Source: Tetrahymena thermophila SB210 (lineage: Eukaryota > Ciliophora > Oligohymenophorea > Hymenostomatida > Tetrahymenidae). From it: 64,000 nucleotides of DNA. A model generated the notes under the pieces. It saw only the letters and a list, made by a program, of their open reading frames with translations, was not told the origin of the DNA and did not search any database. Position 1 is the first letter of the stretch, and each line of letters starts with the position of its first letter. The translations under genes and the position numbers were made by a program. The stretch spans positions 84,140 through 148,139 of the forward strand of contig NW_002476440.1 of assembly GCF_000189635.1 (NCBI RefSeq), given 5' to 3'. Below, in pieces: positions 11,621-57,710 of the stretch.

Positions 11621-13592
11621 ATGAGCTAAGACAGTGCTAAAGAAAATAATGTTCAAAAATAAAATATTTCTCTTTGCAAAATGAAAAATACGAAAGAATT
11701 AACTAAAAACTATAGAGAAAATAATAAATTTTAAAGCATTTATAATACAACCAATGCCAAAAATACCTTATTCTCATCAAATAATTTTGAAAACTTCAAA
11801 TGCTTATCTCCTAAGCTTGATTAATTATTTAACTAGCAAAAAACCGATTTCTAAGAAGAGATCTAAGAAATAAATAAAGGCGCGTGCCTAAGCACTTATA
11901 AAGATTTCCATGGGAAGGGTAAAAATAAAAAATTAAAAGTGCTTTTGTAATTATTTTTCTTAAAAAAGAGGATTTAAATGCTGACATTCAAGATTATGAT
12001 TCTTAATAGACTATAAAGCCTATAAACAGCTTTATTGTGAAAAGCTTTTCATAAAATTTAGAAGATGGTCAGGACGATATAAATATCTAATCAATTTTTA
12101 CTTCTAATAATCCTGATTCACTCTAAATGAGAGGTAAGTAATTCAATAGTACCATGAATTTTAAGATTTCTTTTATCTAGTTAATAAACATTATGACATA
12201 TAAGTAAATTATTCTCAAATCTAAAAATCAGAAGCATCAACATCAACAGAGACATCTGTTAGTTAATCAAGTAATTAATTCATTAATAATTGATTTTATT
12301 GTAATTATATAAAAATATATAGAGAGCTTTTTTGGTGAAGATTAAGATGAAAGAGAAAACAGTTTAAAAATCTCAACTTAATAAAAAGTTGTGAAATATT
12401 AATTGAGTGGCCTAAAAAATTCTCTACATAAAACGGTTATCTTCTAAGATCTCCCCTAGAAATGTATGTTTTTTTTCATTTTAAAAAACAAATAAATAAA
12501 TAATATTTTTTTACTTACTTATGAAAATGAATTTATTTCATTTTTACTTTATTCATTAATATTTAATCAATAACAATTTTTTAAAATGATCAAATCTACT
12601 TTTTTAAAGAAGAAAATCTGATATATTTTTTATTAAAAAAGAATCTGCCAGCGCCAATTAATTTTTTTAAGATAGATCTAAAAAACCAAGTAAATCAATA
12701 TTGAAAAAATTTAGAACGTTTGAAATAAACTCAGGTAAAAAATTAATATAAGACTAAAATAAATTATCAAATTTTATTAGAATAATAAAGGGATGACTTA
12801 GATGTATTACAAGCATTCTAATCAAACATGGACTTTTGTAATATTAAAAAAGAAGAGTTTATCTAAAAATTAATTTAAAATGAAGCATATAAATCAAAAT
12901 ATTTTTTCAGTGAGTTTGCAACAAAAATCTATAACTCGGGGGAAAAGAAAAAAAAGATAATTTTCATGACGCATGATTCCTTTTATGTACTCTAAGATCT
13001 CTTTAGCTAAAATAAAATATAAAAATTTTATATTTCAGAAATTAATAAAATAAAAATTCATTCTGAATAAACAAATATATGCACTATTGTTCTAAAATAG
13101 AAGCTTAAGCTAAATTTATAAATTTTACACTTGAAAGAATTTCAACAATTCATTCAAAGCGTGTTTAAATGCTTCTTAAATTCGTCTATATTAATAATCT
13201 AATAAAAAAAGCAATAACTAATCGAAGAATATACCAAAATTAATGCAAATAATAATAAAAAATCATAAATAGAGTCGTTCTTGGATAGCTAAAAGAAAGA
13301 ATTTTACATAAATATTTAAATAATATCAAGTGTTAATTAATAAAAAGATTTTAAAATATTAGGATTACTTTAATTCCTTTCAAATAGTATTTGTATTACA
13401 GGATTAGAGAAATTTAAAGACTTAAATAGACTCTAATAAGTAGAGTTATTGCATAAAGACTTATAAAAAAGAAGCTTTCTCTTTAAATCATTAAGAAACG
13501 CAGACCAACAGTTTCTAATAAAACTATTAAATGATGAAGAGTTTCCATAATTTGTATAATAAATATAAAATGCAGTAAGCTAAGCTAAATGA
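11621..13592 (+). CDS. PH-like (TH1-like) double-module protein, family member A
   Basis: This is a multi-exon gene, read from the ATG at 11621 after an A-rich leader to the TGA at 13590-13592; about 540 residues as I place the introns. The first intron is 11919-11968, and others lie near 12135, 12272, 12463-12610 and 12735-12790. The N-terminal half is polar and Ser/Asn/Gln-rich, so probably disordered. It carries KTVIF (12430-12444), an RVxF-type match, and KSILK (SILK at 12695-12706). At about 12840-13160 comes a module with FFSE..TKI..SGEKKKKIIF and FYVL, then a strand pattern and a closing helix. This resembles the myosin-I tail TH1/PH fold. A second smaller module of strands plus a final helix (FLFKSL..FLIKLL) ends the protein. 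There is no catalytic motif. The fold suggests lipid or protein binding; the motifs suggest protein phosphatase 1 binding. Both are inferences. Paralogues are B, C, D and F. Confidence 0.8.
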
Positions 13593-14748
13593 ATGATAAA
13601 TACTATACACAAATAATGGTCATTATTATGACTATTATATAACTATTTTATCAAATAATTAAAAATAAATTTTAAAATTATATATACTAATCAATCCTCT
13701 TAGTTTTTATATTGTTTTCTTTCTTATTACTAAGTGTAAAATCACTATTCAATAAAATTCATAAATTAAAATATATATAAAGAGTATAAAAAGTGTTCAA
13801 ATACAATTTTCAATATTTTTTCAAAATTTTTAGGGCTTTTATGGAGAGCTAAAAGCTTTTTTTAAGAATAACTTATTACTATGACACCCTACATAAATTT
13901 CAACTTTAAAAATATTTAATAAGCACATGATTATAAATTAATCTACCTGATATGAATTTAAGATATCCTACAATCTCTTTAGAAGATAAACGACTACATA
14001 ATTCAGAAGTTCAAAAATCACACATTAAATTATTTCTATTTTAATTAATTCAAATTTTAACATTTAAGTAGAAAAAATAGGATATTTATATTAAATTAAA
14101 TTAATTAAAATTTAGATTGAGTTTTTTCATTTCGAAATTTACTATTCAATTTATTAAATAAATAAATAAATAAATAAATACAATCAGATGAAAGATAATT
14201 TTAACTTTTTTGTTTTTGAATTTTAAGTTTATATATGATAAAAAATAAATATAAATTAAATGAGCTTAACTCAAAATCTAATTTTGTAAGTTCAGCACAA
14301 TAAAATATTCCTTAAGCTAATAAAAAACTTCAATTTAATTCCAGCTAAATTTTTGAAATAAATAAATAATTAGTATGGATTATTCACATTTTAACTAATA
14401 AGTGATGGAATTTGCTCTATTTATTAATATTAACTTCCTATTAAAATGAATTCTTTAATTATTTTAATCCCAAATACCTTTTTTGAATAATTTATATAAA
14501 AAAACTCTTAGTTTTAATGTTTTAATTGTAAATATTAAATTTGTAGACAAATTTTATAATATAAAATATTTAATTATCAAATAGTAATTTTATTAATATT
14601 GATACTTTCAATTATAAAGAATATTCAAAGATTTATGTAATTTTATATCAAAATAATTAATTATATTTGAGAATAAAAAACATTTATAATTTTTAAATAA
14701 ATTTGATTTTGAGTAAGAAAGAAAGTATTAATAATAATTAAAAAAATT
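13593..14748. other. Intergenic, no gene seen
   Basis: AT-rich spacer between gene A and a tRNA gene. It holds an AAAT microsatellite at about 14154-14180 and nothing else I can support. Confidence 0.6.
14154..14180. repeat. (AAAT)n microsatellite
   Basis: About six uninterrupted copies of AAAT/AAATA lie in spacer DNA. This is typical low-complexity sequence for the window. Confidence 0.8.
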
Positions 14749-14820
14749 GGGGTCGTCCGAGAATCGAACCCGGGACCTCTCGTACCCTAAACGAGAATCA
14801 TGCCACTAGACCAACAACCC
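14749..14820 (-). tRNA. tRNA-Pro (AGG)
   Basis: The 72-nt minus-strand gene starts GGGTTGT and ends ACGACCC plus discriminator C, giving a 7-bp acceptor stem with one T-G pair. The anticodon arm is CTCGT, loop TTAGGGT, ACGAG, so the anticodon is AGG (proline). The T arm has GGTTCGATT. There is no intron and no encoded CCA. A T-run follows the gene, as expected for an RNA polymerase III terminator. It is identical to three other copies in the window and shares the upstream flank TTGATTAA. Confidence 0.97.
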
Positions 14821-14839
14821 TTAATCAATAGTATAAGCT

Positions 14840-14939
14840 NNNNNNNNNNNNNNNNNNNNNNNNNNNNNNNNNNNNNNNNNNNNNNNNNNNNNNNNNNNNN
14901 NNNNNNNNNNNNNNNNNNNNNNNNNNNNNNNNNNNNNNN
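14840..14939. other. Assembly gap of 100 N
   Basis: Exactly 100 N begin 20 bases upstream of the tRNA-Pro gene. A round 100 usually marks a gap of unknown true length. Repeated tRNA sequence nearby may explain why the assembly broke here. Confidence 0.95.
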
Positions 14940-17255
14940 TTTTTTATTTATTATTATATTCTGAAGTTATTAAAAATATATATTGAAATTTAATCTAATT
15001 TTTTTATAAATAATATCATAACAATATTAATAATTTAGATTTATATTTTTACTGCTTATTTCTGATATTCTTATCATTTTAATTTATAAGATTATCACTC
15101 ACTATTAAATTTTTTATAATTAATTTAATCAAATTTATTAAATTTGATTGCTTAATAAGCTTAATAATTAAGATAGATATATATATTAGAATTTTGCCAA
15201 CCACTAAAAATATTTTTAATTTATAATGAAAAAATTAAAAAATAAATTTTTATTTGTTTCAAAATAAATAAACTAAATTAATGTTTATCAAATCATTAAA
15301 AATTTTATTTTTGACACGCATTTACTAAAATAGCGAAAATATTAATATTTTTTATAAGTTAATTCTGAAATTTAATAATATATAAAGTTAATGAGCTACC
15401 CATATCAATATTTTTTTTGATAAAGAAACTAAATTTTAACTATATAAATAGGCTACTCAATTATTATGAATAAAAAACTTAAATCTAAAATATTTACTTT
15501 AATAAGGTATATTTATTTAATTAAAAATGAAAAACATTGATTGAACTAACCTGAGTAATTAATATTTAAATGATATTTGATAATTTTTTGTTTTTAAAAG
15601 CTGTACAGCAAGAATAAATTAAAGGAATAAATTAACTTATTTGATCCTAATAATTTGGTCATTTAACAATCAAATTAACTAACTAAATATTTATTTATGA
15701 AATAAATTACTTTTTAAAAGTTAAAAAATTTATATATTTTTTTTAAACAAATCAACCTTGAATATTAATTTGAGAGAATTCTTTGATTTTCTAAATTTAT
15801 GTAAATAAATTAAGAAATAAGCTATATTTAATTTAAAACTTCTCATAATTTTATCATTAATATTACTATCAAATTAATTTTTTTATTTCAAAAGTTGAAC
15901 AGCCAGCAAATATAAATTATAATAGCAACATTTGAATATTATGCGATCTTAATAAAATAATCGTTTAAAAATTAGACTTTAAATTGGTATTATTTTTACA
16001 TTTTAAATAAATAACTTGATGAGATTTAATTTTTAATTTTAATATAATAATAGTTTTTATTTTTTAAAAATTTGCAGATAAATTAAGAATATTGATAAAG
16101 TTAAATCTGAAAATAAAAGTAAAAATTAAAAATAGTTAACCAAATAATTAATAATCTCTAGTGATAATTTGATAATATTATTAAACTGTATTGTTAATTT
16201 TCTTTTTTTGATTTTCAAAAGTTGAACAGCAAAAATAGATAGTAAAAGAAAAAATTAATTGTTATATGATCTTAATTAATTAATCATTCAGCAATTTTAT
16301 TTAACAATAATTTGATTTTTATATCTTAAATTAATCATTTAATCAAATTTGATGATTTTAGTTAATTTAACATATAAAATAATTGACTTTTTACCTTTAC
16401 AAACAAAATAAATTTTATTTTTTAAGTTTTACTCCATATAAAAAATTAAAATTTGAATTGATTTTAAAAATCAGACTAATAAAACATTGTATTTTTTAAT
16501 ATTGTTAACTAATAAGATAAAATTGGGTAATTTTGTCTGAGCTTCATGCCATTATATCTGAAATATTAATATCAAACTTTTTATAATTTTCAAAAGTTGT
16601 ACAGCAAAATTATGAGAACAGATTAAAAATTTAGCTATTTTTTTATCATTATTTTAAGATTACTTGATACTGTCATTTCTATAATTATGGTGCTTTTAAA
16701 TAAGGTCCATTTTTGAAATAAGGTATATAAATAAATTTTGTGATACTCTATTTCTTGCAATGGTATCCATTAGGAAAAAGAAACTGAGGTTTTATGATAT
16801 TTAGAAATTGTTTAAATCTTAAAATAAAAATTGCAAATTTTCATTGCTGTCTTTTAATAATTCAGTAATTAAATCATTAGAATTGCACAAAGAATTTACA
16901 AAAGCACTATTAAAAATCAAAAATTAAATGATTGAATCCATATTATTTAATAATTTTTTTATAAATAATTACTGATACTAGCCAAACTTTATCAAAAATT
17001 AGAATTAATTGTATAATTTATTTGCGGATTGAATTCTAAATAATGGTTTAAAATACGTATTTATACTGAATAACAAATAATGTTAAATCAGTCTTTTTTA
17101 TATTTTTTTACACAAAAGAAAGTGTCATTTAGAACTTGGACATATGGGTTATTGATTCATTATCAATTTAAAAAAATAAAAGACTGTGCGAATTAATTAT
17201 TCACCTAAATAAATAGTAATTAGAAATAGACTAAATCTAAAGAGCGAATAATAAA
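14940..17255. other. Intergenic region with a degenerate four-copy repeat
   Basis: I see no gene. The stretch contains four spaced copies of a motif of the form TTTTCAAAAGTTGWACAGCA, listed separately, within longer weakly similar blocks of about 300-370 bp. Three of the blocks share a GATCTTAATTAATTAATC-like segment downstream of the motif. Confidence 0.5.
15592..16605 (+). repeat. Four degenerate repeats around an AAAGTTGWACAGC core
   Basis: The core occurs at 15592-15610 (TTTTAAAAGCTGTACAGCA), 15885-15904, 16213-16230 and 16588-16605, spaced about 293, 328 and 375 bp apart. The first copy contains the perfect palindrome GCTGTACAGC. Downstream of the cores there is partial similarity (a GATCTTAAT-like stretch then ATTTARCAAT). 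It reads as an old tandem array of a ~300-bp unit in which the core has stayed best conserved. No coding frame is visible. Confidence 0.55.
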
Positions 17256-19349
17256 ATGGAATAATATTTAACTAAATAAAATAAATATTAAAGTGAAAGC
17301 ATGCATTCCTGCTAGATAAATACTACAGAAGAATAAAAAAAAAGCTTTCCTGAAAGCAATTAGTATAAAAAATAATTATATATGATTAATTTATTCTAAC
17401 ATTATTATCTTAAAAAAGAATTCAATCTGATTATAAGGAAGGTTTCTAGTCTGTATCTCAAAAGCTTGATTCCATTTTTAACAGATTAGATACCGACTTA
17501 AATCAAAAAAGTGTACGCTTGCTAAAGAGCAGATATCGTCATCCTATTAATTCTTGCTAAGGTTCAAAAGTTATAGGTAAAGAAATAAATTTAAATAGTT
17601 TTACGCACTAATTAATAATTATCTAATACTATGCCAATCAATATATTAAATAATATATAAACATATATAACCTATAAACACAAACAAGAATATAATAAAA
17701 ACTTTTACATTCAATGTAGAAAATTAAAATAGATATACCTATAAGTTATTTGTGTTTAAAAATGGTGTCTAAAATTAACAAAAAGGTAATCATTTTAGTA
17801 GGCTTTTAAATACAAAAATTTTTTAATTAGCCTATAGGGCTTGTACTTTATAAGCAAGTTAGAAAATATATAAATCAGAATTAAAATAAAAGTAAGAAGG
17901 CTTTTTAATAGAATTATCTATAAATTAATCAAACAACAAACAACTAAATTCCATTTTTCTAATAAAAAAAATTTTTTTAAATAAAGAAAGTTGTCCTCTT
18001 AATGGTAATGGAGATGAAAGCGAAAATAGTTTTGTTAATTCCACTTATCAAAAAACTGATAAAAGTGAGCAGAGTAGCCAAAATAATTGTCAAAATAAGA
18101 AAGTTAGCTTCTGTAACTAAAACAGTATATTTTTTTATTAATATTTTTGATAAAATATTTTCTTGTTTCTTATTTAATATAAATATCAGTAATCTATCAT
18201 TTAATCATTAAATTTATGTGTAATAAATATTCCTGCAAAATATTTTTCAAACTAAAAAAGAAGCCACATTTAATAATAGCTACGAAAAGGATACAAAGGT
18301 ATAATTTTAAGGTAAATAAGAAGTAAATGACTCTAATTTAGGTAAATTTAGATTCTTTAATTTTAAATAATGACATACTAAAATGAATAGATACTTCTTA
18401 TGAATTTTCTTTTGATGAGGGCAAAAAAAAATGTAAATCAATTTTGAAAAGATCACAGACATACGAAATAAAGTCATGTAAAATATAAGAATAATAAAAT
18501 CGATTTGAAAATTAATTTATCTTCTTTTATAAAGAAAAAGCTGATGATGAAGATGATTATGGAACAAACTAACTTAAATTAGACTTTTGCGGAATAGAAA
18601 AAGAAAGAGTTGTTTAATACTTGCTTGATAATGAAACATGTAATTCAAAATGTGTTTAATAATATTTTTTCAGTGAGATGGTAACTAAAATATCGAGCTC
18701 TGGATAAACATCTGAGAGGATAATTTTCATCACCCGTAATTCCTTTTATGTGTTATAAGATATTTATAGTTATAAGCATATTTAAAAGTTTGAAATTTCT
18801 GAAATCAGCAAAATAATAATTTATTCACAATATAAAAATATATGCTCTATTGTTATAAGTAACCAGTTTTAATTAAATCTAAAAATCAACCATTTAGATC
18901 AATTTACATAATTCATTCTGACAATTTGTAAGGACATCTTAAAAGCGTCAATCCCTATAATCTATAATTAGAATTCTTTACAGCCTAATATTAATTAAAA
19001 TAATAACATTAAATCAAAAACTCAATCATCATTTTTCAATAACAAAACTAAAGAATTTTACATTTACATCTAGAAAATAACTAATAATATTTAGCATGAA
19101 GGCTCTTAAATGCTTGGCTTAATTTAGTTTATTTAGAATGGAATTTTTATAATGGGATTGGATAAATCTTAGGAATTAAATAGACTTACCTAGGTATAGC
19201 CCTTTTAAATAAACTAATAATAAACAAGCGTAATCTTTAAATCTATAAAAAACTAAGATCATCTGTTCCTTGTTAAACTAAAAGACAATTAAAATTTTTA
19301 AATATTTGTAAATCAGATTTAAAACATATGCCAGAGTTAAACTAACTGA
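17256..19349 (+). CDS. PH-like (TH1-like) double-module protein, family member B
   Basis: The gene is read from the ATG at 17256 to the TGA at 19347-19349. The first intron starts GTATAAAA near 17370 and ends AAAAAG near 17417. The N-terminal half is polar, and a coding exon around 18000-18130 carries NKKVSF (KKVSF at 18097-18111), an RVxF-type motif at the place where genes C and D have KRVTF. The next exon has KSILKRSQTYE (SILK at 18438-18449). The first PH-like module is at about 18660-18960 (FFSEMVTKISSSG, then RIIFITRNSFYVLQD). The second is at about 19060-19345 and ends with NQIQNICQSQTN. The order of parts is the same as in A, C and D, but sequence divergence is high, so B is an older paralogue. 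The function is not known directly; a scaffold or phosphatase-targeting role is inferred from the motifs. Confidence 0.8.
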
Positions 19350-21441
19350 CAAAAGCAAAAAAAATCAATTTTTATATTTGTAATTTCTTATATTCTCTTT
19401 AACATATTTCTTGTGTAATTTAAATGTAAAATTTCGAAAAAATAAAGTTATTATATTTGCTCTTTTCTAAATCAGCTTTAATTGGTGTATTTATTATCAC
19501 AAATTTTTATGTTGTAAAATTATTGATTATAAAATGGTAAAAACAAAAATTAAAAGAATAAAATTAATAAGAATAATTAATAATAATTTATATTTGCTTT
19601 TATTATTCGCTGGTCTAATTTCACCATTAGACAAAAAATTAGCTAGGATTTTTAATTAAGTAAATTTATAATTTTAATGGGGCAAGATAATAATGATAAT
19701 CTAAGGGATTAAAATCACCACCTTTTATATTTAATTGTTAAAATTTATTCAAGACTCTTTTTCAATCTAAAAAGTTTCTTAACTTACTTTACAAAGGTGA
19801 TCAATTTAGAAGTTTAGAGAAATCAGTGTTAATATATATTTTCATAGATCTTTTATATTTAAATGTAATTTGTTGAAGTAAACACAAACAAACAAATTAA
19901 TTACTATTAATTTTTTAACAACCTAGATTTTAAATTTAAAAAATCATATGTAACTAAATACTAGCATAATTAATATAAATATTTTTTGAATTAAATCTAA
20001 AAAATTAAGATTATTTTGATTTTTTATTAGCATGCTTAAAAATTATTAAACAATTACCATTCAATTTATTCGAAAATTTGGTTGCTACTTAATTTAGAGG
20101 ATAGATTCTTTATCTATCTTCTAGTATTACTGATAAAAGTCAATTTTTAAATATAATTTTTTAGCCATTTAAAATATTTGGAATAAAATTTATTTTATCA
20201 TAAATAATGACTAGTTATTATTATAATTTTATCTCTTAACCATCTAAATTATTTATTAAATTTTCTTTATAATAAATAGTTAATAGACCAGCTGTATTAG
20301 AATCATCATTATATATAATATGCTAAATATAAATTACTATTTTGTTAATTTTAAATTAAAATATAATCTAATATCAAAAATAAATTAAATAACTTTCTTC
20401 TTTCTTTTTACAGAATTTTGAAAATCTTTATTTCTTTTCAATAATTGAATAATTTTTATTAAGCATTTCTTACACTGATTTATCTATCTATCTCTTTCTT
20501 TCTAAAATTTCAACAAAAAGAATGTTGATATCAGAGAACATTTATGCAATAGCTATGAAAGTCTATAAATATAGTGTCAGAAAATTTTTCAAAAAGCTCT
20601 AATCCATTATATATTTTAACTTTTTGCTAATAAATAAATATTAAATACTAATTTTTTCAAAATTTTGTTATTTTTTTGTCCCAATTGTATATATTTATTT
20701 ACCGTAAATTCTAGATAATTAAGGACTTTTTTGAGTGGTATTTCAAAAAGGACTAAATTTTTACAAAAATTTTGATTTGAATTTGTCCTTAATTAATGAG
20801 AAACTATGGTATATAAATAATAATATGATTAGGTCTTTATTTTCAGATATATTAAATTTATTATTTTACAGAAAAAATAGTTCTACTTTTCTATAAATGA
20901 TTCATAAAAAAATTTAAGAAAGTCTTTATTAAAAATGTTGTCTATGATTTGTTTCATTCAGAATTTTTTCTCAAAAAATAATCTAAGTTTTATTAACACA
21001 ATTTATAAAATTTTATTAATTAAATATGTTAATAATATTTAAATTATAAACAAATTCATCTTAATATATAGTCAAAATATCAAAGAAAAATAATTTAAAA
21101 TTAAATTTCTTAAAGTTAAATAACTAAATTCATCATAAAAATTAATGAATTATTTAAATAAATTCTTTCCAATCATATTAATTTTACTCTCAAATAATAA
21201 TTAATAATATTAATAACACTTGATTTTATTTTTTAAATTTATGTTTTAACTTATCTAATTAATTAATGAAATAATATTAACACATAAAATAGAAATTAAA
21301 AAGCAATATTTATTTTTTGCTTAAAATAGAGGTCATTCACTATCATTTATATATTTAATTACCAGAATTTTATTTAAATTCAAATTTTAGAAAAATATTA
21401 AAATAATAGGTTTTTGAATAAAGATCAACATTAAAAAAATT
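19350..21441. other. Intergenic, holds a small MITE
   Basis: AT-rich spacer. The only structured piece I see is the 108-bp TA-flanked inverted-repeat element at 20702-20809. No coding signature appears on either strand. Confidence 0.6.
20702..20809. mobile_element. Small MITE-like element with ~27-bp imperfect terminal inverted repeats
   Basis: The left arm at 20700-20726 (TACCGTAAATTCT then TAATTAAGGAC) and the right arm at 20785-20811 read in reverse complement (TACCATAGTTTCT then TAATTAAGGAC) match at 21 of 27 positions. Each end is bordered by TA, which fits a TA target duplication. The 108-bp interior has no open frame. It looks like a non-autonomous DNA element of a different family from the one at 1364-1680. 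Confidence 0.7.
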
Positions 21442-21513
21442 GGGGTCGTCCGAGAATCGAACCCGGGACCTCTCGTACCCTAAACGAGAATCATGCCACT
21501 AGACCAACAACCC
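21442..21513 (-). tRNA. tRNA-Pro (AGG)
   Basis: This copy is identical over all 72 nt to the gene at 14749-14820, with anticodon AGG in loop TTAGGGT and no intron. The upstream flank TTGATTAA and the downstream T-run (polymerase III stop) are also kept. Confidence 0.97.
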
Positions 21514-22001
21514 TTAATCAACAGTTTAAGATCAATACAACTTTGTGTTTTTTCTTTTAAATTGAACAATATTATTTATTTCTTAAATTCACTATTTTTT
21601 TACCTCTTTCTATTTAAAAACATTTAGATAGGTTTTTAGAAGGTTGATTAGTATGTAATACATTTTTTTAGATGAAATCTTTATTTTTATTTTAAGTCGA
21701 TTGATTACTCTCATTAAAAGGATATTTATTATTTAAAAGCACAACTAAGAAAAACAAAGTCTATTTTATTATGTTTTTCTTTAACTTATTAGATTAATAA
21801 AAAGTTTGCGTTTAATCTATAAAAAATATTAAAAAATTAAAAATGATCTATAAAAATTGTAAAGATTATTTTTTCTTTAAAATTATCAATTTTATTTATT
21901 TAAAATAATAAAATTAAATATAATTTTTATAAAATGAAAAAAGAATATCTAAAAATAAATAATTGCCTTAATTATCAAATCAAAATTTAAAAAAAAAAAT
22001 T

Positions 22002-22073
22002 GGGGTCGTCCGAGAATCGAACCCGGGACCTCTCGTACCCTAAACGAGAATCATGCCACTAGACCAACAACCC
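22002..22073 (-). tRNA. tRNA-Pro (AGG)
   Basis: This is a third identical 72-nt copy, 488 bp from the previous one and in the same orientation. It has the same TTGATTAA upstream flank and a T-run downstream. The spacer between the two copies is not similar beyond short flanks, so this is not a simple recent tandem duplication. Confidence 0.97.
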
Positions 22074-24973
22074 TTAATCAAAAGTTTAGATTTGTTTATA
22101 ATTATTCTATTTAATTTTCTATTTATTTTATATGAAACTAATTAAAAATATATTTTAAAAAATCTAAAATATTTACAAGCAACAAAAAATAATTATTGTC
22201 ATGGATACATTTTTATTTTAATTTTTAAAAATCAATTCTTGCTAAATTTATTTATTACTTAACATTGGTTGATTATCTCATAATTTTTAAATAACATTTT
22301 TGAAATTAAACTTCTACTTTTCTTTCAAGCCTAGTTTAAATATATATGAAATAAATAGTCTTTAAAATGTTTATGTCTAATATTTTTAAAAACTAAAAAA
22401 AGAAATTTTTATTTATTTTACATTTAAAATAAAATAAACAAACATAATAACCAAATAACTATTACAAACATAACTTAACTTAATTTCTTTTAGTTAAAAG
22501 AATGATTTGACTCAAAAACTAGCATACAATTTTTTAAATTGAAGAATAATAAATTACTAAATCTAACATTATTTATCTATTTTATATTTAGATAATAAAG
22601 AGAATAAAATCTAAGAAATAAACAGGATATTTTATATAATAATAAATCTTTTAGAATTCTTTCAAAATACAATACTATAAATCCTCGCATTAGAATATCA
22701 ACCTCCTTCTTAAAATCATCAAAAGTATTTAATTATAAATTTATTAACACTCATATTTAAACGCAATAAATTTGCTACAGCTTTTTATATGATTACATTA
22801 TATTTTATTATAGGTTCTGTTGTTTATAATTGATGGATATTACATAAAAAAGCAACTAGTAGCTCTCCTCAAAGTAAAAATTAGATTTATGCAGAATCAA
22901 ATTCTTTCTTATTGATTCTTATCAGTATTTTTTAAATTTATTTATTTATTTTTAAGTTTTTTTTATTTATTTATTAACACTACTTAGTTTGATATTAAAA
23001 ATATACTTCAATATTCTATCTTTATTAAAATATTCAAAAAATTCTTATTAATTTATATTTTATATAATTATAGCCAATTCTCCTTTATTTTATCAATCTT
23101 AATTATTAATATATATAATCTAATTAATTTTAATCATATAATCTATTGCTGGTTAATAGCTATCTAATTTTTATATAAAAATACAGATAATAAATAAATA
23201 ATTAATATACAGTTCGTTTAATCACATTTCTCGTTGTGTAATTACTATTAATCATTAATTCCTCTTAGAAACAAATAGTAATAATTTAAATGTTTATGTA
23301 TTGCTATTTAAACTAAAAATGCATTATTTTATTTAAATTTTCAGTTTTATCAAAAATAACTTTTAAAATCTTTATTATTATTTTATACACTTTGCTTATT
23401 AAAAAAATATTAACAACTAAATTTAGCTTTTCCTACTAATTTTGCATATTCATAAAATTTTATTACAAGTAATTTTATGGAGTTGTTTGATAAAAGGTAG
23501 TTAGTTATTTATTAAATTTCAATGTGGATGCATTTATATTTTTTCACCAAAAAATCTGTGTTATTTTAGAAAATAATTTTAAATTTAAATATAAGAATTA
23601 CTAATATTCTTTATAAATACCATAATCTATCATATACTCCAAAAAAAATTTAATTGCTTAGATAATTGCATTTATACTTTTATTAGAGAAATCAAATTAT
23701 TTTATAAAATAAAAACAAAGTAAAAATTAAATGAGAAAATACAATAAATATTGATTGAAAATATCTAAAAACTTCTTTGTTTGAATATTTTAATAAATAA
23801 ATTAAATTAATAATACATTTTTCTAAAAATTAAGTGTCTTTTTTCATAAAAAAAATTATAATTGTTATTTGGTGTTGGCAGGCATTATTATTTATGAATT
23901 TATTCGATTAATCTATTAATAATAATCTAAGAAAAGAATTTAAATCCAGAGAAGTTAATTTCTTCTTAAATCAATAAAGCTCATTAAAGATATTGAAATT
24001 AGATATTTAATTATTTTGTTAATCAAAAAAGTTAAACCATATGAATCCACTGTTAAATATTTGTATAATTTTACACATAAATGCCATTCAAAAAGTAATA
24101 TTTTCTTATTATTAATAAAAAGCTTGTAATATTTAAAATAATATTTATTTTAAAGTTTATTTATCTAACAATAAATTGTTTCAGTATAAAAAAACGATTA
24201 TCTTGTAAAGATAAAAGAATAATTAATAATCAAACCTATTCAATACTGATGTCTTGAATTATTAAAGTTATGGACAGTATATTAAAATAAAACAAATACA
24301 TATAATGATTCTGATTTAAGCAACTCTCTGTTATTAATTAACTGAAGAATGCTAAATTAATATAATTTATTTTCTTAGATCAATAACTATATACTAAATA
24401 TATAATATTGATAATAGAGGTGGGAATAGAAACTAATTATTTTCTTACCAATTTTTAATATTTTGTTTATAAATTTAAAATACAAATTCTTAATCAATAA
24501 TTTAATTAATCGATTCCCACCTGATTTATTTAAAATTATATTTATGCAAAAATATTAATCAAGGAATTAGAAAAAACAAAAAAAACATTTTAATATATTT
24601 AGTTAAAGTTTATATTTTATTTTGAATACGTAAAATTCATTAAGGTATTTCTTCATTTAAGTTTTTCTATAGAATCAATTTAAAAATAGCAAAAGAGTAA
24701 ATAGTAAATAAATACGAAATCACTGAACTTATTTTTGTAAAACAATTACGTGATTGATATGTTTTTTTCCCTTATTTTTCAAGAAGAAATTAGATTTCGT
24801 CATCATCATTCGCATTTTTTAAACAAAATCAATTAATAAATTACTTTTTCAATCAATTTAAATTATGTAATATCCGCATTATGATTTATAATAGGAATGG
24901 AATATTTTTTAAATATTATAATCAAATTAAAATACAAAACTTAATATAATATAAATAATACTAGAAAAAATAA
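22074..24973. other. Intergenic; left arm of a ~5-kb duplicated block
   Basis: I see no gene. From about 22735 onward the sequence is matched by the stretch starting near 27880. For example TAATTGATGGATATTACATA and CAACTAGTA recur in the same order, as does the region before the genes. A conserved inverted repeat lies at 24418-24522. Confidence 0.65.
24418..24522. repeat. GC-rich inverted repeat, copy 1
   Basis: AGGTGGGAAT at 24418-24427 is a perfect inverted match to ATTCCCACCT at 24513-24522. The arms are far more GC-rich than the surrounding DNA. The same pair recurs upstream of gene D. It lies about 450 bp before the ATG of gene C. It could be a structured RNA, a regulatory palindrome or the ends of a small element. 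There is no TA or other clear target duplication. Confidence 0.6.
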
Positions 24974-27059
24974 ATGAGTCATAACTACAATTTGTAGACT
25001 AGCTTTTCGATAAGAAGTAGATTTTCAGATTAAAATAAGTAAAATATGTTTATATTTTCTTATTATTATAATTAAAAAATATAAAAGAACTTAAACCAAC
25101 TCATTGGATAGTATTTCACCAATAAACTAAACGCCACATCAGTTTTTCATGTAACTAGAAGCTGATTGTTAATAAAAAATATAATTAAAAAGTAATGAAA
25201 CTCTACTGAAATCTAACATATCTTCTGAAATAAGTAAAAGTTTCATATTACTTTCTAATACAAAACATTTATAATTATATAGATTACTCAAATACAGACA
25301 TACAAGAAGATAATACTCAAGAAACGGTATATCCTATAAATACCTTAAACACTAAAAGTTTTTCTCAATTCGCAGAGAATGAAGACAAAGATATCAAACT
25401 TGATATAAATTTTTTAAACACATCAATTCCATAATAGAAGCGTAAATGCTTTTTTATTTATAAAAAAAATTTACTTTATAATTATTAATATAAAGAGAAC
25501 TAAGATTAAAGTTTCTGCCTAAATCAGTAATAAAATAGATAAAGTAATGATTATTTTGAAGAAACATCCCAAATTTAATCTAGTAATTTATTTCATTTCA
25601 AATAAACAAATTTTTAAAAATAACACTATTGAAAATTAAGACACCTTTCTTAATGACACTGAATTCGAATTTGAGAGCTTAAAAAATTCATCTTATCAAA
25701 ATACTGAAAAAACTGAAGTGAGCAGCATTAAAAGCACTTCACAAAAAAGAGTGACTTTTAATGAGAAAATTGAACAAAGTACATTTTTTAATTAAAATCA
25801 TTTTCAAATTTATGAAATTTCAAGAATTTAATAGAAAAAAAGAAATATTTTTATAAATTTGATATTTTATGATAAAGAATACAGTTAATTAATTTGAGGA
25901 GAATATTCATTTTTTTTAATTTTAAAGAGGTTTTTTAGAAAGATGATATTAATGCGCTAGAGTAAAAGATTTAAATATTATTAAGAAAATATGACGTTGA
26001 AAACAGATAATTGGGTAAGTTTTTAACTTTTAAAATTATTTTTAAGTAATTTATTTAAATTAATTAGAATCTAACTATTTTTTTGGCTAAAGTCATGGTA
26101 AATAAACAAGAAAAACCATTTTGAAAGCATCTAAATCTTGGGAATAAACATCAGGTAAAAAATTATTAGTTAGTTTGTTAGTTAGTTTAAAAAATAATTA
26201 ATCATTAAAAAAAATATTAGAATATAATTAATCTGATTAATAATAATAATACGATTCTTTTGAAAGAACTCAATTTGATATGGATTTTTGCGAAATAATA
26301 AACGAAGAAATTATCTAGCAATTACTTTAAAGTGATAGTCCAAATAAAAATTAAAATTATTTTTTTAGTGAGTTAGTTACCAAAATATCTCGTTCTGGTG
26401 AGAAGAAAAAACGAATAATATTTTTTAATCAAAATTCCTTTTATGTTCTCAAAAACCTTAGTTCTCATAAAGGAATATAAAAATTCAATCATTCAGAAAT
26501 CAACAAAATAGTTGTGCACTCAAATAATACTAATTTTTGTTCTATTGTTGTGAGAAGCAAGTTTTAATTAACCTTAAAAATTAATCACTTTAATGAATTT
26601 ATCAAAACTATTGGAGATATATTCAAATATATATTAAAAACTAATTTGCCTATAACCTATAAATATAATAAATCCTCATGTGAGAAATCTGAAGATAACA
26701 TAATCGAGAACAGCTATGCCTCACAAAGCGATTAGCTTTCAATGAATTATCAAAGATAATTTTACATAACAATTAACAAAATAAATAATAATAAATATTT
26801 AGATGACTTACAAATATTAGGTTTATTATAAATCTTTGATATAGATATTTGTATAAGCAGTTTAGAGAAATGTGAAGGTTTAAATAGACTGCTTTAAGTA
26901 GATTTAATTGAGATAGATTTATAAAATAGAAGATTTTTTTTTAAATCTATTTAAAATTAAAATAATTTATTCCTAATAATGCTTTAAAATGACTTAGAGC
27001 TTACAATTTTTATAGATTAAATATAAAAGTTTTATAAAAAAAAAACATAAACTATCTGA
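24974..27059 (+). CDS. PH-like (TH1-like) double-module protein, family member C
   Basis: The gene is read from the ATG at 24974 (MSHNYNLQTSFSIRS) to the TGA at 27057-27059. The first intron opens GTAAAATATG near 25048 and closes AAAAG near 25088; further introns follow near 25241, 25448, 25830 and 26030. The disordered N-terminal half contains QKRVTFNE (KRVTF at 25745-25759), a textbook RVxF form, and KTILK (26115-26126), a near match to SILK. The first PH-like module, about 26360-26640, has FSELVTKIS, SGEKKRI and NSFYVLKNL, then CSIVV and a closing helix. The second module, about 26755-27055, ends with FIDQIQKFY. It is nearly the same as gene D. The cellular role is unknown; binding of a phosphatase and of membrane or protein partners is inferred. 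Confidence 0.82.
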
Positions 27060-29644
27060 TTGACACCTTAACTTATTTGCATGTATTTTTATTATTGTAT
27101 GCTTTCAATTAATCAATATGTATAATTCATTAATTTACTTTTTATTACGAGTTATTCTGATACAAAAAATTTGCAAAACATATATATGATTGTATGCAAA
27201 AGTTATCTTAATCTAATTTAATTAATTAGTTAATTTATAAATCAGGCTAGATAAATTTTATTTTTATATATTTTAAAATGGATCATAAATTAAGACATCC
27301 ATCAATACAATAAATATGATTGTCATAGTTAGTTATATATATATATTTAATTGGAGAATGTATTAAAACATTTTTTAAGTTAAAGTAGATATTATTGTAA
27401 ACTATTAATAAGAACTTATGAATATATAGGTAGGTAAAAACATGTATCACCAGTAATATTAATAATAAATAGGAATATACTAGTGTCAAGCAAATTATTA
27501 TTTAAATATAAAACACATATTAAATTATATACCTTAAATCCTCATAAATTCTCACCAGCATAAATTTTCACTATATTTTCTGAATTAATAATATACTAAG
27601 ATTTTCATAAATATTTTATCATGGATAGATTGAACTTGGGAACCTATTAATATATTAAATATTGTAATAATGTTTAAATAAATTATAACATATTATCAAT
27701 GTATATTATATTTATGTAAATAACTTCCATTCAACAACAAGCAAAATAAATAAATAAATATATTTTTATTTAATAAAATTAATCTTTTAGTAATAAAAAA
27801 AATTTTGCTAAAATCTGATTTTTCTCTAAAGAATTTTATTTATTTTAAAATGATATTGTATTTTGATAATAAATTATGTATTTATTAATACTAATATTTA
27901 ATCGCAATAAATAAACGAAGCTTTTTGTGTGATTACAATAAATTTTATTTTAGGTTGCTTATAATTGATGGATATTACATAAAAAAACAACTAGTAACTT
28001 ATCTCAAAGTAAAAATAAAATTTATCAGAATCAAGTTCTTTCTTATTGATTTTTGTTTACTATCGCTTTTAATATATATCACATCTATTATATTTTTGAT
28101 TATTTGATGTGCATTATTTTAATTTGCAAAAAGCTAAAAAAATAATGTTTTCGAATTATATTCTATCCTTCACTTAAAACGTTTTAACAATTTATTATGT
28201 TAAAAATACTAATAAGCATAATATTTAAAATATATTTGAAAAGTTCATCTTAATCTAAGTATGCAAAAAATTCTTACTATTTTGTATATGAAATTAAATT
28301 TTAGCTAATAAGTATTTATTTTATCAATCTTAATTATTAATATACATAATCTAATTAATTTTGGTCAGAAAATAAATTATTGGTAAGTAACTATAAAATT
28401 TTTAATTAAAAATATAGCTAATAAATAAATAGTTAATATAAAGTACATTTAATCCCATTTCTCGATTCATAATTACTATTAATCATTAATCGCTCTTTAG
28501 AAACAAAAACTAATTTAAATGTTTATGAATTCCATTTTGAACTAAATGATGTATTATGTCAATTATATTTTAAGTTATATCTAAAGTAACTTTTAAAATC
28601 TTTATTATTGCTTTATACTCTTTACATATTTAAAAAATTTGTATGACTAAATTTAATTTTTCTTACTAATTTTGTATATTCATAAAACATTATTACAAGT
28701 AGTTTTATGGAATAAAAGGTAGTTGTTCAATTTCAACGTGCATTTATTTTTTTTCACCAATAAATCTGTGTAATTTGAGAAAATAATATAAAATTAATAT
28801 TTATGCATTACTAATATACTATATAAATACCATAAACTATCACAAACTCCAAAAAAAAATATATATTTCCATCAAAAATAAATTTAAAAATATAGAGAAA
28901 TCATATTTTTTTATAACATAAAAATAAAGTAAAACTTTAAGAGAAAATACAGCAGATAGATATTGATTTAAAATTTCTAAAAACTTCTCAGTTTGAATAT
29001 TATAAAAATAAATTAAGTTGATAGATAATACATTTTTCTAAAAATTAAGTGTCTTTTTCATATAAAATTTTTATATTGGTTGATTCGTGTTGGTTGGTAC
29101 GCATTGTTATTTATGAATTTATTAGATTAAGTTATTTATAATTATCTAAGAAAAAAACTATAACTCGAAGTTAATTTCTTATAAAATAAATAAATAAAGT
29201 AAAGTACATCAAGGAAATTGAAATTAGAAATTTTAATTATTATGGTACTCAATAAACTTAAAAAATATTAATCAATTTTTAATTATTTGACACATAAATA
29301 TCATTAAAAAAGTAATATTTTCAAATTATTAGTAAAAAGCTTGTAATGTTTAAGATAAATTATTTTTTTTTAAAGTTTACTTATCTAATAATAAAAATCT
29401 TTTAGTACCACAAAACGATTATCTATTTTAAAGATAAAAGAAAAATTAAAAAACAAGCCTATTCAATACTGACACCTACCTTGAATCTTGAAAGTCATGG
29501 ACAGTATATTAAAATAAAACAAATAAATATAATGATTCTGATTTAATTCTCTCTGTTATTAGTTAATTATAGAATTTTAAATTATTACAATATATTTTCT
29601 TAAATAAATAAATAAACACTAAACATATATAAATTTGATAATAG

Positions 29645-29749
29645 AGGTGGGAAAAGAAACTAATTCTTTACTCACCAACTTTGAATATTTTATTTCTAAA
29701 TTTAAATTACAAATTCTTAATCTACTATTTAAAAAATCGATTCCCACCT
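29645..29749. repeat. GC-rich inverted repeat, copy 2
   Basis: AGGTGGGAA at 29645-29653 pairs with TTCCCACCT at 29741-29749. Both arms and the spacing are kept relative to 24418-24522, although the sequence between the arms has drifted. Confidence 0.6.
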
Positions 29750-29859
29750 GATTTATATAAAATTGTATAAAAGCAAAAATATTAATCAAGAAATTAGAAA
29801 AAACAAAAAAAACATTTTAATATATTTAGTCATAGGTTATATTTTATTTCGAATATGTA

Positions 29860-30210
29860 AAATATCTTAAGGTATTTCTTTATTTAAGTTTTATTTTTGA
29901 AATAATTCATTCAGTAAAATTAAAATATTGCAAACAACTAACGAGTTAATAGCAATTAAATGCGAAATCACTGTACTTACTTTAGTAAAAACTTAATCTG
30001 ATTAATTTTTATATATTATATGATTGATACCTATATAAAATATGTTAAGGCATTTCTTCATTTGGGTTTTATTTTTAAATAATTGATTCAGTAAAATTGA
30101 AATATAGCAAAGCAAAGAGCTAAAGAGTTAATAGCAATTAAATCTGAAATCACTGTACTTATTTTAGTAAAAACTTAATCTGATTAATTTTTATATATTA
30201 ATTATATCAT
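29860..30210. repeat. Local tandem duplication (~175-bp unit, two copies)
   Basis: Two successive units each hold TTAAGGYATTTCTT, a GTTTTATTTTT stretch, TTCAGTAAAATT, GAGTTAATAGCAATTAAAT and AAATCACTGTACTTA, in that order. Duplication copy 1 (around 24640-24760) has this unit only once, so the extra copy arose after the 5-kb duplication or was lost from copy 1. Confidence 0.7.
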
Positions 30211-30452
30211 TAATACGTTTTTCCCTTTATTTTTCAAGAAGAAATTAGATTATTGTCATCATCATTCACATTTTTAAACAAAATTCAATTAATAGTCAAT
30301 AATAACTTAATCAATAATGTACTATTCTTTCTATTAATTTAAAATATGTAATATCCATATTATGTTTTATATTAGGTTTGGAATGTTTTTTTAAAGGTTA
30401 TATATAATCAAATTATAATACAAAAATAATATAAAAAAACTTTAAAATAAAA

Positions 30453-32529
30453 ATGAGTCACAACTACAATTTGTAAACTATCTTTTCTAATAGAAGCATA
30501 TTTTCAGATAAAAATAAGTAAAAAATGTTTATATTCTTATTATTATAATTTAAATATTTTATAAAAGAACTTAAACCAACTCATTGGATAGTATTTCACC
30601 TATACCCTAAAGGACTCATCAGTTTTTCATGTAATCAGAAGCTGATTGTTAATCAAAATAATAATTAAAAAGTGATGAAACTCTACTGAAATCTAACATG
30701 TCTTCAGGAATAAGTAAAAAGTTTCATATTACTTTCTAATAAAAAACATTTATAATTATATAGATTACTCAAATACAGACATACAAGATGATAATACTCA
30801 AGAAACTGTATATCCTATTAATACCTTAAACGCTAAAAGTTTTTCTCAATTCTCAGAAAATGAAGACACGGATATCAAACTTGATATAAATTTTTTAAAC
30901 ATATCAATCCCATAATAGAAGTGTAAATTCTTTTTTATTTTTAATTAATAAAATTTACATAATAATTATGCATATAAAGAGAACTAAGATTCAAGTTTCT
31001 GCTTAAATCAGTAATAAAATAGATAAAGTAATGATTATTTTGAAGAAACATCCCAAATTTAATCTAGTAATTTATTTCATTTCAAATAAACAAATTGTTA
31101 AAAATAACACTATTGAAAATAAAGACACACTTCTTAATGATAATGAATCTGAATTTGAGAGCTTAAAAATTTCATCTTATCAAAATACTGAAAGAACTGA
31201 AGTCAGTAGCATTAAAAGCGCTTCACAAAAAAGAGTCACTTTTAACGAGCAAATTGAAAAAAGTAAATTTTTCAATTAAAATCATTTTCAAATTTATGAA
31301 ATTTCAAGAATTTAATAGATAAAAAAGAAATATTTTTATAAATTTGATATTTTAAGATTAAGTTTAATTAAATTGAGGAGAATATTCATTTTTTTTAATT
31401 CTAAAGAAGTTTTTTAGAAAGATGATATAAATGGGCTACAGTAAAAGATTTAAATATTATTAAGAAAATATGAAGTTGAAAACAGATAATTGGGTAAGTT
31501 TTTCTTTTAAAATTCTTTTTAAGTAATTTATTTAAATTAATTAGAATCTAATTATTTGTTTGGCTAAAGTCATGGTAAATAAACAAGAAAAACCATTTTG
31601 AAAGCATCTAAATCTTGGGAATAAACATCAGGTAAAAAATTATTATTTAGTTAGTTTTTTAAAAAAATAATTAATCATTAAAAAAAATATTAGAATATAA
31701 TTAATCAGATGAATAATCATATGATTCATTTGAAACAATCCAATTTGATATGGATTTTTGCTAAATAATAAACGAAGAAATTATATAGCAATTACTTTAA
31801 AGTGATAGTCCAAATAAAAATTAAAATTATTTTTTTAGCGAATTAGTTACCAAAATATCTCGTTCTGGTGAGAAGAAAAAACGAATAATATTTTTTAATC
31901 ATAATTCCTTTTATATTCTCAAAAACCTTAGTTCTCATAAAGGAATATATAAATTCAATCTTTCAGAAATCAACAGAATAATTGTACACTCAAATAATAC
32001 TAATTTTTGTTCTATTGTTGTGAGAAGCAAGTTTTAATTAACCTTGAAAATTAATCACTTTAATGAATTTATCAAAACTATTGGAGATATATTCAAATAT
32101 ATATTAAAAACTAACTTGCCTATAATCTATAAATAAAATAAATCCTTATGTGAGAAATCTGAAGATAACATATTCGAGAACAGCTATGCCTCACAAAGTG
32201 ATTAGCTTTCAATGAATTATCAAAGATAATTTTATATATCAATTAACAAAATAAATAATAATAAATATTTAGATGACTTACAAATATTAGGTTTATTATA
32301 AATCTTTGATATAGATATTTGTATAAGCAGTTTAGAGAAATGTGAAGGTTTAAATAGACTGCTTTAAGTAGATTTAGTTGAGATAGATTTATAAAATAGA
32401 AGATTTTTTTTTAAATCTATTTAAAATTAAAATAATTTATTCCTAATAATGCTTTAAAATGACTTAGAGCTTACAATTTTTATAGATTAAATATAAAAGT
32501 TTTATAAAAAAAAAACATAAACTATCTGA
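30453..32529 (+). CDS. PH-like (TH1-like) double-module protein, family member D
   Basis: The gene is read from the ATG at 30453 to the TGA at 32527-32529 with the same exon plan as gene C. The exon around 31031-31279 encodes ESEFESLKISSYQ, then SASQKRVTFNEQIEK (KRVTF at 31229-31243). KTILK follows at 31592-31603. The first PH-like module lies at about 31830-32110 (FSELVTKIS, GEKKKRIIFFN, FYILKNL). The second lies at about 32225-32525. Differences from gene C are mostly small, with no broken frame that I can see, so both copies look usable. It sits in copy 2 of the tandem duplication. The function is inferred as for gene C. Confidence 0.82.
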
Positions 32530-41571: not shown

Positions 41572-42600
41572 ATGGAGAAATCCCAAAAAAGTTTAAAGTT
41601 AATGTAGCATGAATCAATTATTAAATCTTAATATTTTTATTAAAATTTTCTACTTATAAAAATAGTAAAAATCAAATGGTATATTGATTAAATTCTATTA
41701 ATTAATTTCTTTAATATTGATAAAATAATATATTATATTTTTATGTTTTAGTTGAGGTGAATTTTAAAAGATATATTTATATAATTTTAACTTTTTTTTT
41801 GCTTGAAATTAGAATCTATACTGAGTATTTATGAAGATATAAAAATTGAATAAAGCGTGAAGCTTTTAAAAAACTTAATAGAGCAGTTTAATACTCCTCT
41901 TAATATAAAAATATGTACCAGCCTATCAAAAATTGAAATAAGGGAATTTTACAATAGAAAATAAAAGACAAAAACGATCAAATCACTAAAAATATTTTTT
42001 AAAAAATAGATAATCAAAATAGTAAGATTTCAATCAAATATATGAATTAACTTCAAGTATAAATATTAAAATATATTTAAGAATGATAATTTTTATATTA
42101 ATAATTTAGTAAAAAATAACGAAATTTAGGTCTATGATTAAGAGTAATTTGAAGCAAATTAATGATAATGTATCAATTTATATACAATAAAAGAGTAAAA
42201 ACTGATTAATAATTTACTTTTAAGTGAAATTTATGATTCAAACTACTTAAAATAATATTTTTTTCATTGAATTAATAACAAAAATATCTTGTTATGGAGA
42301 GAAGAAATAAAGGAATATATTGATCACATATAATTCATTTTATTTTCTAAAAAGCTTTTACAGCTAAAGATGTATATAACAGTTTGATATAAAGTAAAGA
42401 AATTGCATATTACTCCATTCAAATGATTCTAAAATATGTTCAATTGTAGTGAGAAATGTATTTAAATTAAATTTGAGAATTAATTATATTAAAGAATAAG
42501 CAGGAAACACTAGAAAGCATTCTTAAATGTGTATTAAAAATTAATTTCAAATAGAAATAAAATTGTAAATGAGATATTTAAAATTGACTATATAAATACT
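41572..42600 (+). pseudogene. Decayed PH-like family member E
   Basis: A possible first exon starts with the ATG at 41572 (MEKSQKSLKLMQHES) and has a donor near 41663. The clear match is at about 42260-42540: FFIELITKISCYGEKKQR, then NSFYFLKSF, then LHSNDSKICSIVVRN and LNLRINYIKE. This is the first PH-like module of genes A-D. After this a one-base frame change is needed to continue the closing helix (ETLESILKCVL). The second module is not recognisable, and the middle exons have in-frame TGA or are missing. It is best read as a host pseudogene or a badly degraded copy. Confidence 0.65.
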
Positions 42601-57638: not shown

Positions 57639-57710
57639 GGGTTGTTGGTCTAGTGGCATGATTCTCGTTTAGGGTACGAGAGGTCCCGGGTTCGATTCTC
57701 GGACGACCCC
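57639..57710 (+). tRNA. tRNA-Pro (AGG)
   Basis: This is the fourth identical 72-nt copy, here on the plus strand, with anticodon AGG in loop TTAGGGT. The upstream flank TTGATTAA and the downstream AATTTTTTT (polymerase III stop) are kept. It lies between the divergent genes G and H. Confidence 0.97.

Follow-up and report, generated by a model that had tools for sequence, protein, structure and literature searches.

The specificity of protein phosphatase 1 (PP1) stems from its partner proteins, and the locus considered here raises the question of whether a tandem family of ciliate genes encodes such partners. A preliminary description of the window, a stretch of 64,000 nucleotides of Tetrahymena thermophila DNA, had proposed four of its genes, A to D, as candidate PP1 partners, each carrying an RVxF-type and then a SILK-type motif ahead of two PH-like modules. 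We asked how far the motifs, the family as a whole, the tail and the PP1 of the same genome bear this proposal out.

Motif pairs and gene models in the window

With TAA and TAG read as glutamine, all eight motif positions described for A to D translate to the residues claimed for them. On the forward strand, gene A has KTVIF at 12430..12444, close to the end of its exon (..SLHKTVIFQDLPQK), and SILK at 12695..12706 (..KKPSKSILKKFRTFEINS), while gene B has KKVSF at 18097..18111 and SILK at 18438..18449 (..KKKCKSILKRSQTYEIKS); translation, exon models and profiles agree on these four. Translation and profiles likewise place KRVTF at 25745..25759 and TILK at 26115..26126 (..KQTRKTILKASKSWEQTS) in gene C, and KRVTF at 31229..31243 and TILK at 31592..31603 in gene D. 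The strict pattern [GS]IL[KR] is matched by A and B and not by the TILK of C and D. In the spliced models, RVxF and SILK are separated by 24 residues in A, 47 in B and 51 in both C and D.

Gene models were obtained by splice dynamic programming with the motifs as anchors, and an unanchored run served for comparison. When the motifs are forced, RVxF and SILK of each pair fall on separate exons of one gene, 5' of the first tail module; without forcing, the RVxF motif is retained in all four genes and the SILK exon in A and B only. Predicted gene A (11621..13592, +; anchored model) comprises exons 11681-11918, or 11621-11918 from an in-frame upstream ATG, 11969-12133, 12181-12270, 12323-12463, 12642-12734 and 12781-13592. 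In predicted gene B (17256..19349, +; anchored model) the RVxF motif lies in exon 17912-18124 and the SILK motif and tail in 18391-19349, a stretch that may span an unspliced intron; the 5' exons of B are the least certain. The better-supported part of gene C (25283..27059, +; anchored and unanchored models) has exons 25283-25441, 25584-25778, 25928-26014, 26068-26154 and 26221-27059, of which boundaries 26154 and 26221 were set by hand from the sequence and by analogy to D, the anchored model reading through there. The corresponding part of gene D (30764..32529, +; anchored model) has exons 30764-31027, 31068-31262, 31407-31493, 31545-31631 and 31694-32529; the first of these may include an intron, its counterpart in C being shorter. 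C and D are recent duplicates and were therefore counted as a single case. Compared with the tails, the N-terminal halves of A to D, m26, m49 and m56 have a more polar, less hydrophobic composition.

A profile search further identified a third conserved island (SNTDIQEDNTQETVYPINTLNTKSFSQ) in exon 25283..25441 (+) of C, with counterpart exons starting near 11968 in A, 30763 in D and 44488 in a further gene, E. The original gene list had omitted two family copies in the same window, neither with a recognisable motif pair. Gene E is a predicted paralog with a tail exon at about 45053..45883 (+; profiles and splice model), in which both motif exons are unrecognisable and the exon-2 island near 44488 is retained; F, found by profiles, is a partial tail at 42254..42502 (+). 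Near E, F and a fragment at 46.9 kb there are further regex matches in other reading frames, which were left uncounted for want of a clear frame or exon phase. Rfam (at the gathering threshold) and tRNA scans returned four tRNA-Pro genes and nothing else.

A family across the genome and the conservation of its motifs

The related tail is encoded at 27 places in the 101-Mb assembly. At 16 of these, two islands lie upstream, first one with [V/I]-x-F and then one with [S/T/P]-[I/T]-L-K; 12 of the 16 genes are located beyond the window and had no part in the preliminary description. The absence of the motifs from further homologues, which the preliminary description had named as evidence against itself, is thus not what the genome-wide test returned; conservation is nevertheless partial, since no pair is recognisable at the other 11 places (E, F, the C110 fragment at 46.9 kb, five on C60, two on C178 and one on C377).

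In alignment rows anchored on the motifs, V/I and F of the first motif and L and K of the second are present in all 16 pair-bearing members. The RVxF pattern [RK]x(0,1)[VI]{P}[FW] is matched by 14, including A to D, the basic residue being absent from m32 and m49; strict [GS]IL[KR] is matched by ten, and the six deviants read TILK (C and D), PILK (m23 and m53) or STLK (m35 and m38). In the 13 genes whose RVxF and SILK exons are both detected by profiles, the RVxF exon comes first, and the same order holds in three C369 genes, whose RVxF was chosen by regex and position. Spacing ranges from 22 to 79 residues in 14 models; C91, whose model was cut within RVTF, was left out, as was m23, whose 95 residues probably reflect a model that reads through an intron. 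Both islands occur in two tail clades that are 38-43% identical. A SILK-exon profile made without C369 sequences recovered two C369 genes (E 4e-05 and 0.009) and reached the third only at E 1.0; the RVxF-exon profile found none of the three.

Several candidates were set aside. RVxF-like strings in C60b and C60c, KIVTF with PILK in C60a and KQKIDF in C178a were not counted, their frame or exon phase being unclear. The search near other TH1 genes took in C78, C216 and C377, with C430, C288, C342 and C341 outside it; the motif-island profiles had no match in about 2.1 kb upstream of each of C78 and C216, or in L046 around C377. An RVxF-exon profile match in L052 (E 0.02), the top such match, was taken as chance, and KSILKLIDPDEK, read by eye at the start of the TH1 match of L052, was not counted.

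The claim that both motifs are conserved amid diverged surroundings is borne out by column identities. Among pairwise comparisons of six author-chosen representative RVxF exons (A, B, C, C91, m23 and m56), K, V and F are identical in 45/45 cases, the two variable motif columns in 12/30 and other columns in 157/465 (34%). For eight SILK exons (the same six with C369a and C369c), the KSILK columns are identical in 127/140 cases, against 60/331 (18%) for other columns. Motif residues rank with the most strongly conserved positions in their exons. Between C and D, dN/dS is 0.067/0.226 in the RVxF exon and 0.026/0.082 in the tail, and the SILK exon differs by a single change of each kind, which is not enough to judge. 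In the N-terminal region of the recent m32/m38/m49 trio, where changes are few, dN/dS exceeds 1 or is undefined, and docking may therefore be relaxing there.

The tail and the PP1 of the same genome

The first tail module, located in C at 26358..26660 (+; Pfam Myosin_TH1, E 2.7e-05, below the cut-off) with counterparts in A, B, D and E, resembles Myosin_TH1 (PF06017) in 10/10 scanned members at E up to 1 (best 1.7e-10). The tails of A, B, C and E score 13-26 bits and that of D 27.2 bits in the genome scan, under the curated cut-off of 31.1 bits; one C60 place and both C178 places pass it. By sequence, the best PDB match of the first module (E 0.0094, 34 residues of a glycosyltransferase entry) was taken as chance. 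Of the two PH-like modules originally described, only the first is borne out, by its TH1 resemblance. A PH-like second module is not supported: a PDB search to E 5 yielded nothing for it, its profile does not resemble that of the first module, and its Pfam matches are single-member only (best PH_SLA1, E 0.038 in 1/7). On reading the modelled N-terminal halves by eye we noticed no myosin motor, though gene starts are uncertain. The family resembles myosin I tails in its first module and departs from them in the sub-threshold scores of A, B, C and E and in an extra C-terminal module that has no clear relatives.

Two genes of PP1 type are present in the genome, on C332 and C405; the former was compared over three stretches and the latter was read without alignment. 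Applying to the C332 gene what we take to be the RVxF-groove residues and PP1 numbering, we find E54/E56, D242, E287 and later groove residues unchanged relative to PP1-alpha entries. Residues D166, E167 and I169 are unchanged relative to PP1-2 entry 8a8f. The acidic-patch list used in these comparisons is that given in PMC10066265. N86 was seen by eye only.

Candidate PP1-targeting subunits and competing explanations

Taken together, these findings partly support the proposal of candidate PP1 partners: the 12 further pair-bearing genes and a PP1 with retained docking residues speak for it, and the 11 of 27 tails without the pair against it. We put the probability at roughly 0.6 that A to D are members of a ciliate family whose proteins serve as regulatory subunits, target PP1 and carry a TH1-like anchor. 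Two PP1-type tags ahead of a tail resembling membrane- or actin-binding domains make these proteins good candidates for holding PP1 at specific cellular sites. The polar, probably disordered N-terminal half would hook the catalytic subunit through RVxF; the SILK-type motif, a few tens of residues downstream, would provide a secondary contact; and the tail, by its TH1 (PH-like) first module, would anchor the complex at membrane or actin. Kinases may switch docking off at the Ser/Thr found at x of RVxF, or at that in R/K-x-x-[S/T]-[F/L/Y/W]-[E/D], often present after SILK. PP1 binding, the joint action of the two motifs, membrane anchoring and phospho-control are all matters that we infer from sequence. 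More tentatively, these would be PP1 holoenzyme subunits in which RVxF and SILK of reversed polarity, joined to a motor-less TH1 tail, put PP1 at membrane or cortical sites, with tandem paralogs directed to different places and some copies having shed the docking module.

In Inhibitor-2 and KNL1, SILK precedes RVxF, and to our knowledge neither these proteins nor Inhibitor-3 or Spc105 possess a TH1-like domain. Inhibitor-2, Inhibitor-3 and Spc105/KNL1 pair SILK with RVxF and use both PP1 pockets (PMC10066265, PMC13065327), as the family may, with Inhibitor-3 differing in its order, SILK before RVxF (PMC10066265). The SILK of Spc105 is described as no more than auxiliary (PMC13065327), a point against a full role for the second motif in the family. 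An N-terminal SILK is stated as a rule in PMC3792071, and the family runs opposite: RVxF lies 5' of SILK in the 16 pair-bearing members, three of them as picked by position. For A to D the preliminary description had already called the order the reverse of the common one. It is not, however, unprecedented, because Rif1 of multicellular organisms is described as carrying both motifs in one C-terminal region, RVxF then SILK (PMC3410773). Rif1 is a HEAT-repeat chromatin protein, whereas the family motifs precede a TH1-like tail. Ki-67 and RepoMan (RVSF and RVTF) share the RVTF-type motif (PMC5005033) but have phi-phi and KiR elements in addition. Among the matches listed in a literature search of titles and abstract openings, with subscription papers mostly outside it, there was neither a ciliate PP1-targeting family nor a TH1 tail combined with docking motifs for PP1.

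It could be argued that RVxF alone docks PP1 and that the second island is a SILK lookalike, for instance a site of 14-3-3 or basophilic-kinase type preceded by basic residues. Conservation does extend beyond SILK, to T/S, then an aromatic residue or L, then E/D, and STLK and PILK variants retain a similar downstream part; the island may therefore serve more than PP1. Moreover, the SILK of LAP1B, C-terminal to RVxF, is argued from its order to be non-functional (PMC3792071), and the non-canonical SILK of Inhibitor-3 contributes almost no affinity (PMC10066265). Nevertheless, KSILK is the strongest part of the island (127/140 identities, against 68/168 in the next six columns), m49 retains SILK though its downstream part is altered (GFQRLD), and metazoan Rif1 shares the order (PMC3410773), so that we consider this explanation rather unlikely.

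That the PP1 likeness is fortuitous, and that both islands instead serve other partners by docking or phosphorylation (as kinase substrates, 14-3-3 sites or membrane-binding basic patches), seems to us improbable. K-R-V-T-F and R-S-Q-T-F do match a basophilic-kinase consensus, and an RVxF regex match alone arises in 22-54% of shuffled N-terminal halves. A reported chance occurrence of the short consensus in about 25% of proteins (PMC4794898) likewise counts against the PP1 reading. The ordered pair is another matter: RVxF then [GST]IL[KR] within 10-110 residues appears in 0.2-1.4% of shuffles per protein (16 modelled halves, 4000 shuffles each), against 10/16 real sequences, which, being related, are not independent outcomes. 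Both islands also recur in two clades, and x of RVxF varies (T, S, I or Q; gene A has I, C369b has Q) with V/I and F held constant, a pattern more to be expected of docking than of a simple phosphorylation site. That the N-terminal regions are largely decaying in a birth-and-death tandem array, with motif likeness reflecting recent shared descent only, is very improbable. Signs of decay in the array are present in fragment F, in a copy with a broken frame at C110:28.4-29.7 kb and in the early TGA of m35, and C and D are recent duplicates; yet the islands persist across representatives whose other columns have fallen to 34% and 18% identity, and dN is below dS in the RVxF exon of C and D.

If A to D and their relatives are indeed PP1-targeting subunits, the same docking pair set before diverging tails in a tandem family would offer a natural series for studying the effect of motif order and spacing on the docking of PP1. 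The family may likewise provide a route to understanding how ciliates target phosphatases inside the cell.

Distribution and conservation of the motif pair

Genes A, B, C and D of the window each encode an RVxF-type motif ([V/I]-x-F) followed by a SILK-type motif ([S/T/P]-[I/T]-L-K), in separate predicted exons upstream of a tail comprising a TH1/PH-like first module and a second C-terminal module. The preliminary description proposed that this pair docks protein phosphatase 1 (PP1), and translation confirmed the residues assigned to all eight motif coordinates. Six-frame searches of the assembly (101 Mb, 445 contigs) with the tail of C revealed at least 26 places, and a more distant tail revealed at least 27, including those 26. 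Fifteen lie at 23.7-130 kb on C110, the contig on which the window occupies G000:C110:84140-148139, five on C60, three on C369, two on C178 and one each on C91 and C377; the window itself holds A, B, C, D, a further copy E and a fragment, F.

The DNA of the window is AT-rich, at 15-24% G+C per 2-kb step, and the frames of its tail exons stay open only if TAA and TAG encode glutamine, as in ciliates. C and D represent a recent segmental duplication, and just downstream of D (33315-36000) are tandem repeat units with a spacing of mostly ~380-395 bases. Runs of exactly 100 N at 14840-14939 and 55131-55230 are probably assembly gaps. Four tRNA-Pro(AGG) genes, all with the same covariance score, lie at 14749-14820, 21442-21513 and 22002-22073 on the minus strand and at 57639-57710 on the plus strand; the first three fall within copies of a 101-nt unit with 94-98% identity to the first copy.

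The claim that the motifs are conserved held for part of the wider family. Both islands occur in 12 more tail-bearing genes, namely eight on C110 (m23, m26, m32, m35, m38, m49, m53 and m56), one on C91 and three on C369, and no recognisable pair was found at 11 of the 27 tail places (E, F, a C110 fragment at 46.9 kb, five on C60, two on C178 and that on C377). All 16 pair-bearing genes possess V/I and F, with 14 satisfying the RVxF regular expression, and the strict form [GS]IL[KR] is present in 10, the others having TILK (C, D), PILK (m23, m53) or STLK (m35, m38). Outside the window, at G000:C110:28.4-29.7 kb, lies a family copy with an RVxF-like KEITF, an SVLK and a tail split over two frames which, judged by its sequence, is a decaying member of the array.

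Splice models were built from tail codon usage and GT-AG introns, in one run blind to the motifs and in a second with both motifs forced. The motif-blind run placed the RVxF motif near an exon end in A, B, C, D, m26, m32, m38, m49, m53 and m56, and within a longer exon in m23. The SILK exon was recovered in six genes (A, B, m26, m32, m49 and, as PILK, m23) and missed in C, D, m38, m53 and m56; for m35, which has an early TGA, this run predicted neither motif exon. Paralogs are alike in exon ends near the motifs; the 5' ends of the models are uncertain, and the m38 model extends into an assembly gap.

The motifs served as anchors for ungapped blocks, which itself accounts for part of the excess in conservation. 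The most constrained columns of these blocks were K, V and F in the RVxF exon, and K, S, I, L and K, plus downstream [K/R], T/S, aromatic or L, and E/D, in the SILK exon. Pairwise identity among six RVxF-exon representatives was 45/45 at K/V/F, 12/30 at the two variable motif columns and 157/465 elsewhere; for eight SILK-exon representatives it was 127/140 at KSILK, 68/168 over the next six columns and 60/331 in the remainder. Bias is lower in profile searches, here of ~410,000 residues. With m32 and m35 withheld from its construction, the RVxF-exon profile recovered both (E ~2e-18) and no C369 gene. A SILK-exon profile from which C369, m35 and the C110 copy at 29 kb were withheld recovered m35 (7e-07), that copy (1e-05), C369a (4e-05) and C369c (0.009), with C369b at chance level (E 1.0). 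The best non-family matches among these residues reached E 0.013 for the RVxF exon and 0.1 for the SILK exon. On this sequence evidence, we consider the finding of a conserved motif pair to be sound.

Evolution of the pair and a third island

A tree comprising 25 tails (all 27 except F and the 46.9-kb fragment), with C377 and C178b as the root, unites the pair-bearing C110 and C91 genes in one clade (support 0.90). The C369 genes group together (0.68) within another clade (0.97) that also contains the genes of C60 and C178a, none of which has a recognisable pair; E lies outside both. The tail of C369a shares 38-43% identity with the pair-bearing C110/C91 tails. The pair is probably older than the split between these clades and was probably lost later; that it was gained twice is less likely.

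Between C and D, dN/dS values were 0.067/0.226 for the RVxF exon, 0.041/0.183 for exon 2, 0.046/0.063 for the exon between the motifs and 0.026/0.082 for the tail, the SILK exon having one synonymous and one nonsynonymous change. Among the m genes, ratios were 0.21-0.33 for tails (six pairs) and 0.33-0.79 for the N-terminal region (seven pairs). Three N-terminal pairs within the recent trio m32, m38 and m49 (G000:C110:30.8-50.5 kb) gave ratios above 1 (1.34, 1.46) or undefined, on few changes (13-14 nonsynonymous). The same genes carry weak motifs, the basic RVxF residue being lost in m32 and m49 and the SILK motif being STLK in m38, which together suggests relaxation in this sub-array.

The exon preceding the RVxF exon contains a third conserved island, around D-I-x-(E/D)-x-T-x-E-T-I-x-x-I-N-[S/T]-[F/L] (..ADIxDxxTxETINSINSxxIKSF..). 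Profile searches located it or its exon in C (25283-25441), A (from ~11968), D (from ~30763), eight C110 paralogs (m35 among them weakly, E 3e-05) and C91, and not in B, C369, C60 or C178. E retains it (from ~44488; E 1e-04) although it has no recognisable PP1 pair.

Tail modules and a candidate PP1 partner

Of the two PH-like modules described previously, the first matches Myosin_TH1 and the second has no clear relative. With E values of 1 or lower (best 1.7e-10), Myosin_TH1 matched the first module in all ten members scanned; Carm_PH did so in two of ten (best 0.0028). For Myosin_TH1, the tails of A, B, C and E score below the Pfam cut-off. TH1 tails bind membrane and actin (actin- and lipid-binding in the Pfam description). 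Extracts from PMC3942036 report 12 class XIV myosins for T. thermophila and mention no ciliate TH1 myosin. Further TH1-domain places occur on C78, C216, C430, C377, C288, C342, C341 and C178, and the motif-exon profiles gave nothing convincing near those on C78, C216 and C377.

The STPPase_N profile matched two genes, on C332 and C405. Over a 96-residue stretch, the C332 protein matched PP1 entries at E ~1e-60 versus ~1e-34 for PP2A entries; the C405 gene is PP1-like on reading by eye. The C332 protein retains E54, E56, D242, E287 and later RVxF-groove residues relative to PP1-alpha entries, as well as D166, E167 and I169 when compared with PP1-2 entry 8a8f alone. The groove residues and PP1 numbering are those that we take to apply. 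The acidic-patch residues follow extracts from PMC10066265.

The x of RVxF varies (T, S, I, Q) and V/I and F are kept, which favors docking over a simple phosphosite. The most likely mechanism is that RVxF would anchor PP1, SILK would provide an additional contact, and the complex would be anchored through the TH1 module. In the portion of PMC13065327 concerning Spc105, SILK is auxiliary and RVxF primary. Precedents for the motif order differ: Rif1 of multicellular organisms has the same RVxF-SILK order as this family (excerpt of PMC3410773), whereas for LAP1B this order was counted against its SILK match (excerpt of PMC3792071). It is, from sequence, plausible to consider the family as candidate PP1-targeting (regulatory) subunits.
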